A DNA stretch of 34,164 nt from positions 1 to 34,164 of the forward strand of contig CANRET010000021.1 of the NCBI GenBank assembly GCA_947629715.1, in the 5' to 3' direction. The stretch comes from an uncultured Akkermansia sp. (GTDB lineage: Bacteria; Verrucomicrobiota; Verrucomicrobiia; Verrucomicrobiales; Akkermansiaceae). The notes beneath the pieces were generated by a model that ran no database searches, was not told the DNA's origin, and was given only the letters and a program-made list of their open reading frames with translations. Within the stretch, counting starts at the first letter, position 1; each line of letters begins with the position of its first letter. Position numbers and translations under genes: made by a program. Of the stretch, positions 19,171 through 20,974 are shown in pieces.

Positions 19171-20157
19171 ATGTTCTCCTCACTGATTTTCGACTGGTCC
19201 GGTACGCTGTGCGATGATCTGACGCTCACGCTCCAAGCCACCAACTACGTGATTTCACAGTACGGACTGCCCGCGCTGGACCGCGAGCAATTCCGGGCGG
19301 AATTCCAACTTCCCTACCCCGCTTACTACTCATGGAAAACTCCGGGCGTCCCCATTGAGGAGCTGGAAAACCACTACCGACACATCCTGAACTCGCCGGA
19401 GGCGGAGCCTGTCACCGTGCTGCCGCACGCGCGCGAGTTTTTGAACTACTGCCAAGCGCGCGGCATTCGCTGCTTCATCCTCTCCAGCATGGACTCCAAA
19501 GCGTTTGACCGCCAAGCGCGCGAACTCGGTCTCATCGACTACTTTGAAGGGCTGCACACAGGCATCCTCAACAAGGAAGCCCATATTCACTCTCTGCTTG
19601 CTCAGCATGCTCTCGACCCGCAACGCACGGCGTTCATCGGCGACATGCAGCATGACATGTCGGCCGCCCATTGCGCCGACGTCTGCGCCATCGGCGTGCT
19701 GACCGGCTACAACAACGCCGCCCAGCTCTGTGAGGCTGAGCCGGATCTCGTGGTGCCGCACCTCGGCGCACTTCAGTCCCTCATGCAACGCTGCACCTGC
19801 TCCCCCTCGCGTGACAAGATCTGCCTGCACGACCTCTCCTTCACCTGCCGTCTCGGTGTGCCGGAAAGCGAGCGCGCCACGCCCCAACCCGTCCAAGCGG
19901 ATGTCACGATCACCCCGCCGCTGCCCTTCAGTGAGATAACGGAAGACATCGCCTGCACCATCGATTACGACGCGCTCTCCCGTCGCCTTGTTGAGCTGGC
20001 GCAAGCGGAGTCAACCGTGCTGCTTGAAACCCTTGCTCACAAGCTCGCTTCCTGCTGCGTTCGCGAATTCGGCGCAACCGCCGCCACGGTGCGACTGCGC
20101 AAGTTCATCCTGCCCAACACATCCGCCGTCTCTGCCACCGCCCACGCGCGAAAGTGA
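19171..20157 (+). CDS. HAD-family phosphatase fused to dihydroneopterin aldolase (FolB) domain
   Basis: A two-domain protein of 328 residues. Residues 1-210 are a HAD hydrolase: nucleophile Asp8 in FDWSGTL, ILSSMDS near 110 (motif II), and Asp158/Asp162 in FIGDMQHD (motif IV). The position two after the nucleophile, Asp in most phosphatases, is Ser10. Residues 215-328 match FolB, which cleaves 7,8-dihydroneopterin to hydroxymethyl-dihydropterin and glycolaldehyde. This part shows DKICLHDLSFTCRLGVPESER (Glu234), TIDYDAL (Tyr266), LLETLAH (Glu286) and VRLRKF (Lys311). The start at 19171 follows the upstream stop by 10 nt. Longer reading of the frame back into the previous gene is out of frame with it and was not used. 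A role in dephosphorylating dihydroneopterin phosphate before aldol cleavage is inferred from the fusion. Confidence 0.85.
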   Translation: MFSSLIFDWSGTLCDDLTLTLQATNYVISQYGLPALDREQFRAEFQLPYPAYYSWKTPGVPIEELENHYRHILNSPEAEPVTVLPHAREFLNYCQARGIRCFILSSMDSKAFDRQARELGLIDYFEGLHTGILNKEAHIHSLLAQHALDPQRTAFIGDMQHDMSAAHCADVCAIGVLTGYNNAAQLCEAEPDLVVPHLGALQSLMQRCTCSPSRDKICLHDLSFTCRLGVPESERATPQPVQADVTITPPLPFSEITEDIACTIDYDALSRRLVELAQAESTVLLETLAHKLASCCVREFGATAATVRLRKFILPNTSAVSATAHARK

Positions 20158-20423: not shown

Positions 20424-20974
20424 TCAAGGCTTGAGCGTACCGAGCGGAACAACGCACACTCCGTCCTCGCGGCGATAGGCAAACTGTCCCAGTCCGGTCA
20501 GCACCATCATGAAGGAAGGAGCCGGTGAACGGTCGGTATTCACAAGCGAGGCGAATTTGGTGAGATTGGCTGCGCCTTCGTCCACACTTCGCAAGTCGCC
20601 GCCAACTTAATTTCCACCAGTCCATAACGTCCGTTTCGCAGACGGATAATAGCATCCACTTCCCTCCCGTTCCTGTCCAGGTAATGATAGACCTTGCCAT
20701 CCAAAGCATCGGCATAGATGCGCAAATCGCGTACCGCCATATTCTCAAAAAGGAATCCCGTGGTCGGCAGGTCATCGATCAACTCCTGCGGTCCCGCTCC
20801 GAAAGCCGCCGCCGCGATGGAGGGGTCCGTAAAATAGCGTGTTTTTGCCGCCCTCAGAAGTGCCTTGGAACGCAGACTTGGCGACCAATTTTCTGCTTCT
20901 TCAATGACAAAAATCATCCGTAAAGCCTCCAGATTGTGGATTGCAAAATTAAATGCAACAGGTTCTTGGCCCAA
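20424..20974 (-). pseudogene. Frameshifted remnant of an AAA ATPase, DUF4143 part only
   Basis: The minus strand from 20940 encodes LRMIFVIEEAENWSPSLR, RYFTDPSIAAAAFGAGP, TGFLFENMAVRDLRIYADA, YHYLDRNGREVDAIIRL and GRYGLVEIKL. This is the C-terminal DUF4143 region of prokaryotic AAA ATPases, including the PD-(D/E)xK-like E-V-D...E-I-K. Near 20590 the frame breaks: a doubled TG (GTGTGG) shifts it by two. In the new frame the homology goes on as VDEGAANLTKFASLVNTD, SFMMVLTGLGQFAYRRE and VVPLGTLKP, ending at TGA 20426-20424. The whole N-terminal ATPase half is missing. It is a dead gene, of a different subfamily from the intact ATPase at 32067-33320. Confidence 0.85.
20935..20970 (+). repeat. 36-bp dispersed repeat, copy A
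   Basis: Matches the minus strand of 32027-32062 at 34 of 36 positions, beginning TGTGGATTGCAA and ending GGTTCTTGGC. The second copy lies inside the IS30 transposase remnant. Copy A sits at the broken N-terminal edge of the ATPase remnant, in the opposite direction to it. A TTCTTGGC/GCCAAGAA inverted repeat follows (20963-20990). Confidence 0.75.

Follow-up and report, generated by a model that had tools for sequence, protein, structure and literature searches.

The window, a stretch of 34,164 nucleotides from an uncultured Akkermansia sp., contains on its forward strand an open reading frame with an ATG at 19171 and a TGA stop at 20155-20157, which encodes a predicted protein of 328 amino acids (Table 1). 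The frame remains open upstream of this ATG back to 18376 (593-aa ORF), although the homologues start at the equivalent ATG. The initial annotation had placed a HAD domain and a FolB domain in this single frame, which was borne out by Pfam: HAD_2 matched residues 5-176 (E = 2e-20, above the curated cut-off) and FolB (PF02152) matched residues 217-315 (E = 5e-18, 66 bits versus a cut-off of 31.8). The AlphaFold model of the fusion protein had a mean pLDDT of 90.5, and a fold search with this model retrieved two separate sets of structures, one of C1-capped phosphoglycolate-phosphatase-type HADs and one of FolB enzymes. Elsewhere in the window, positions 20540-20974 of the reverse strand encode a C-terminal DUF4143 fragment of an AAA-type ATPase, the N-terminal part of which is apparently missing.

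Table 1. Coordinates of the HAD-FolB fusion gene and its domains, motifs and active-site residues in the window.
Feature	Position	Strand	Basis
HAD-FolB fusion gene, 328 aa and stop	19171..20157	+	Translation, Pfam
HAD domain with helical C1 cap, residues 1-206	19171..19788	+	Pfam HAD_2, AF2 model, fold search
HAD motif I, D8-W-S-G-T12, with Ser10 for the usual second Asp	19192..19206	+	91/92 distinct domains DWSGT
HAD motif III, Lys135, invariant	19573..19575	+	Alignment of relatives
HAD motif IV, G157-D-M-Q-H-D162 (predicted Mg2+ ligands), His161 invariant	19639..19656	+	Alignment of relatives
Short linker; in most relatives the site of a gene boundary or a NUDIX domain	19789..19809	+	Locus comparison
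FolB (predicted dihydroneopterin aldolase) domain	19810..20154	+	Pfam FolB; FolB structures, TM (target) 0.9
FolB Glu234 (Mtb FolB E22)	19870..19872	+	Alignment
FolB Tyr266 (Mtb FolB Y54)	19966..19968	+	Alignment
FolB Glu286 (Mtb FolB E74)	20026..20028	+	Alignment
FolB Lys311 (Mtb FolB K99)	20101..20103	+	Alignment

The C-terminal domain is most likely a dihydroneopterin aldolase, as predicted from its sequence. It shares with FolB / dihydroneopterin aldolase (PF02152, TIGR00526) the domain, the fold (TMt 0.9) and four active-site residues. Glu234, Tyr266 and Lys311, the FolB residues singled out in the initial annotation, align with E22, Y54 and K99 of Mycobacterium tuberculosis FolB, and the fourth residue, E286 (E74 in M. 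tuberculosis), is also retained, so that all four positions (Glu22, Tyr54, Glu74 and Lys99/100) are kept. Among the NCBIfam models, folB_dom matched above its cut-off, while the FolX model scored 21.7 bits versus a cut-off of 152. The domain differs from the usual FolB in that it sits behind a HAD and scores below the cut-off of the TIGR00525 equivalog (50.5 versus 72.15 bits).

The N-terminal domain has the attributes of a C1-capped HAD phosphatase, namely the nucleophile Asp, the motif III Lys, the motif IV acidic pair and the fold, which it shares with C1 HAD phosphatases acting on small molecules, such as AlnB. The three aspartates on which the HAD assignment had been based, Asp8, Asp158 and Asp162, were all found at the positions given. 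Fold, cap type, nucleophile, motif III Lys and motif IV acidic pair are common to the phosphoglycolate-phosphatase group (COG0546; 2ah5, 2hsz and AlnB 4ex6), but the domain departs from this group by having DWSGT instead of DxDGT and an invariant GDMxHD, and by scoring far below every named equivalog. The HAD equivalog models of NCBIfam matched the fusion protein only below their cut-offs, indicating that no named HAD function suits the domain. Phosphonatase PhnX, the motif I of which reads DW-A-GT, was considered and rejected: TIGR01422 scored 19.5 bits versus 220, and the sole cap Lys near the Schiff-base place, K56, is not conserved.

In classical HAD phosphatases the second Asp of motif I is the general acid. 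The initial annotation had read this motif as D-W-S rather than D-x-D, which is correct and applies to the entire HAD family: among 92 distinct domains no DxD was found, with DWSGT in 91 and DWCGT in one. A Ser at the general-acid position suggests an unusual HAD chemistry, and the invariant His161 of motif IV could, as a guess, be the substitute acid. The family offers a natural test of HAD function with Ser as the general-acid substitute. The replacement of the Asp by Ser10 (Cys in one) across all 92 domains would also suit a HAD devoid of phosphatase chemistry that serves FolB in binding, delivery or regulation. This is very unlikely, since D8, T12, K135, D158 and D162 are unchanged throughout the aligned relatives, a constancy unneeded in a dead domain, and the residue at Asp+2 is dispensable in the HAD phosphatase Sav2152 (PMC11084212). 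In that enzyme the D12A change at Asp+2 raised activity on an activated ester, and Mg2+ binding was apparently taken over by D237 of motif IV; a missing Asp+2 is thus compatible with a phosphatase (PMC11084212). A wider neighbouring group in the phylum (loci L107-L114), which contains the nearest other HADs, has DWNGT as motif I and is likewise without Asp+2.

A first scan of species genomes, ranked by tblastn, yielded 57 Akkermansia-type loci and 22 loci from other Verrucomicrobiota. Every one of the 57 Akkermansia-type loci (L002-L058) had HAD and FolB joined in a single frame, which excludes chance or a sequencing error as the origin of the fusion. Outside Akkermansia, 17 of the 22 orthologous loci encode HAD-NUDIX fusions, and the HAD stands alone in the other five; the NUDIX parts that were scanned gave Pfam E values of 1e-20 to 1e-24, with an intact Nudix box. 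At these 22 loci folB was the next gene in 16 and lay within 2 kb in three more, while one (L067) had none within 6 kb; at the last two (L071 and L076) the contig ends soon and the status of folB was not visible.

Since ranking by tblastn could favour loci near FolB, the count was redone with HAD-only or HAD-NUDIX queries. A phylum survey detected the family in 22 of 145 genomes, members scoring at least 226 bits before a fall to 90, and folB was fused or adjacent in 18 of them; the four exceptions belong to a single family, f4. Many FolB-bearing Verrucomicrobiota in this survey were without the HAD family, suggesting that other phosphatases are able to dephosphorylate 7,8-dihydroneopterin monophosphate (DHNMP). 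A class survey found the HAD in 245 of 384 genomes and 103 of 171 genera, and among the matches listed 134 of the 245 HAD genomes matched HAD-NUDIX over nearly the whole profile. Sixty further loci from the class survey were inspected, not as a random sample but as the 30 best HAD-NUDIX matches together with 30 genomes hand-picked across families, FolB being used in neither choice. There, folB was fused or next in 54 (29/31 with HAD-NUDIX, 20/24 with HAD alone, and five further HAD-FolB fusions, of which three belong to the Akkermansia family and two to other families). A search of plasmids and phages for relatives outside the phylum recovered generic HADs only, with less than 32% identity. 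Some Haloarcula plasmid matches (H18-H20) were to an annotated HAD-IIA protein and covered the last part of the HAD together with the NUDIX domain, possibly a HAD-Nudix fusion that arose independently in archaea.

The Akkermansia HAD-FolB fusions formed one clade in both HAD trees. The smaller first tree gave a single origin of HAD-FolB and the wider genome set gave several: in the wider sample the HAD-FolB label changed five times, with well-supported branches forcing at least four of these changes. The NUDIX label changed eight times, at least five of them forced. The five state changes indicate that HAD and FolB were joined more than once, or were joined and then split, and repeated joining or splitting of the fusion domains has, as judged from these trees, happened. 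The intergenic distance between HAD and folB is 0-60 bases in close relatives, which makes fusion a short step. In Akkermansia, the fused NUDIX domain has been lost.

The genome to which the window belongs (2.2 Mb in 116 contigs, 97.6% complete) was searched for a separate folB, which had been named beforehand as evidence that would count against the proposed role; none was detected, and the fusion is the only FolB of this genome. FolE2, FolK and a FolP-type protein were detected as well. FolE was absent from all eight genomes examined and FolE2 was present in all eight, which rules out a FolE-based pathway and, together with FolK and the FolP-type protein, indicates a folate pathway that starts with FolE2. 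The four Nudix proteins of this genome are an RppH-like protein, a KsgA fusion, a NudE/ADP-ribose-type protein and one that is unassigned; no clear dihydroneopterin triphosphate (DHNTP) pyrophosphatase was found among them, and none could be taken as the lost fused domain, the similarity being weak only. The KsgA fusion lies on contig C2 of the same genome (L082:1402-2853, reverse strand) and consists of a KsgA/RsmA rRNA dimethyltransferase with a C-terminal Nudix domain (YfcD/IDI-like). A single-contig Akkermansia genome (G113) has neither the HAD nor FolB and keeps FolE2, FolK and FolP. Replacement of FolB by a PTPS-III was rejected for this genome: its one PTPS copy resembles those of FolB-bearing Akkermansia, and PTPS therefore gives no explanation for G113.

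The pathway runs from GTP cyclohydrolase, which produces dihydroneopterin triphosphate, through removal of pyrophosphate by a Nudix enzyme and a phosphatase step to cleavage by FolB (PMC1971073, PMC5389931). The Nudix enzyme is known as FolQ in Lactococcus and plants and as NudB in E. coli (PMC1971073, PMC5389931). The phosphatase was termed non-specific in a comparative study from 2007 (PMC1971073), and a phosphatase in the pathway figure of a 2026 review of bacterial pterins is labelled unidentified (PMC13259868). A search of an open literature library retrieved no paper that names a DHNMP phosphatase gene and no description of the HAD/FolB/NUDIX fusion set.

Fused to the HAD and adjoining folB, the NUDIX domain of the relatives belongs to the enzyme class expected from FolQ and NudB, NUDIX being the fold of the known DHNTP pyrophosphatases. 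It differs from them in lacking a specific NudB match, and in the protein of the window it is missing altogether. The domain scored about 24-32 bits with the NudB model (cut-off 103), which was no higher than with other Nudix models, and no DHNTPase model was above its cut-off. Its substrate is presumably DHNTP, as assigned from gene context.

Nudix, HAD and FolB would thus represent three consecutive steps after GTP cyclohydrolase, which assigns the HAD to the DHNMP step. We put the probability at roughly 0.7 that the HAD domain is a DHNMP phosphatase in a bifunctional folate-pathway protein with FolB, a reading drawn from sequence and gene context. The HAD is physically linked to the neighbouring pathway steps, by fusion to FolB or NUDIX and by folB adjacency, and this combination provides strong guilt by association for DHNMP dephosphorylation, with no other known step lying between. 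The proposal of the initial annotation that the HAD is a phosphatase feeding FolB gains support from HAD-NUDIX genes that immediately precede folB across the class, from the repeated HAD-FolB fusion, and from the single FolB that accompanies FolE2, FolK and FolP in the genome. The joint absence of HAD and FolB from G113 and the small-molecule phosphatase fold also favour the DHNMP assignment.

According to this assignment, the HAD domain would remove the phosphate from DHNMP by forming an aspartyl-phosphate at D8, Mg2+ being coordinated by D8, D158 and D162, and the FolB domain would then cleave dihydroneopterin to 6-hydroxymethyl-dihydropterin and glycolaldehyde. In many relatives, the fused NUDIX domain would convert DHNTP to DHNMP, folB lies immediately downstream, and the cluster would span the three successive steps between GTP cyclohydrolase (FolE2) and FolK. 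Passing of the product from domain to domain might bring some benefit. It is moderately likely that the D-x-S HADs constitute a dedicated bacterial DHNMP phosphatase family, fused across Verrucomicrobiota either to the enzyme of the step before, a Nudix DHNTP pyrophosphatase, or to that of the step after, FolB. The fold and the pathway step are known, and the fusion set would supply a gene for the step. If so, a gene-less dephosphorylation in folate synthesis, a classic drug-target pathway, would be filled by a HAD without the usual general acid, and the linkage of this phosphatase to the enzymes acting before and after it would open a direct route to the missing gene in a bacterial class that is widespread and has the gut bacterium Akkermansia muciniphila among its members. 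The synthesis of another vitamin, riboflavin, likewise has HAD phosphatases (YigB, AtPyrP2 and others) that carry out a dephosphorylation for which the enzyme had been missing (PMC12051542); those enzymes stand alone and have low specificity, whereas the HAD of the window is physically joined to a pathway enzyme.

The order of the two reactions could also be reversed, with FolB cleaving the phosphorylated DHNMP and the HAD then hydrolysing glycolaldehyde phosphate, as a folate-pathway phosphatase after FolB; the synteny of HAD and folB would be equally suitable. Glycolaldehyde phosphate is similar to phosphoglycolate, the HAD is nearest to phosphoglycolate-phosphatase-type HADs, and an archaeal protein has been annotated as a DHNMP aldolase (PMC5041015). 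This order is nevertheless highly improbable, given that the FolB residues of the window are standard. FolB enzymes of this type use dihydroneopterin.

The four genomes without adjoining folB in the phylum survey have a different context. In family f4 the HAD adjoins a LOG-family gene, apart from folB, and in three genomes (L119, L120 and L121) FolB is fused behind a circularly permuted YpsA (cpYpsA) SLOG domain (PF12694). LOG-family genes ('lysine decarboxylase', PF03641) adjoin or lie near the DWSGT HAD at L100, L102-L105 and L205, and in genome G078 the gene row is LOG, one intervening gene, HAD-NUDIX and folB. The LOG neighbours in f4 and G078 hint at a nucleotide-related link.

This proximity to a nucleotide-processing gene, the absence of an adjoining folB in some genomes and the frequent promiscuity of HAD phosphatases (PMC12051542) would all fit a general house-cleaning or nucleotide phosphatase, whose joining to folB and NUDIX would be a product of operon history instead of a common pathway. 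We regard this as unlikely in view of the two distinct fusions (NUDIX and FolB) and of the folB adjacency at 54/60 loci from many families, given also that the remaining neighbour genes are variable. Assignment to the DHNMP step is preferred for the HAD.

Two loci from MAG records titled Akkermansia muciniphila (L074 and L079) encode HAD-NUDIX, with a HAD identical to that of genomes from other families, suggesting that the organism names of these records are wrong.
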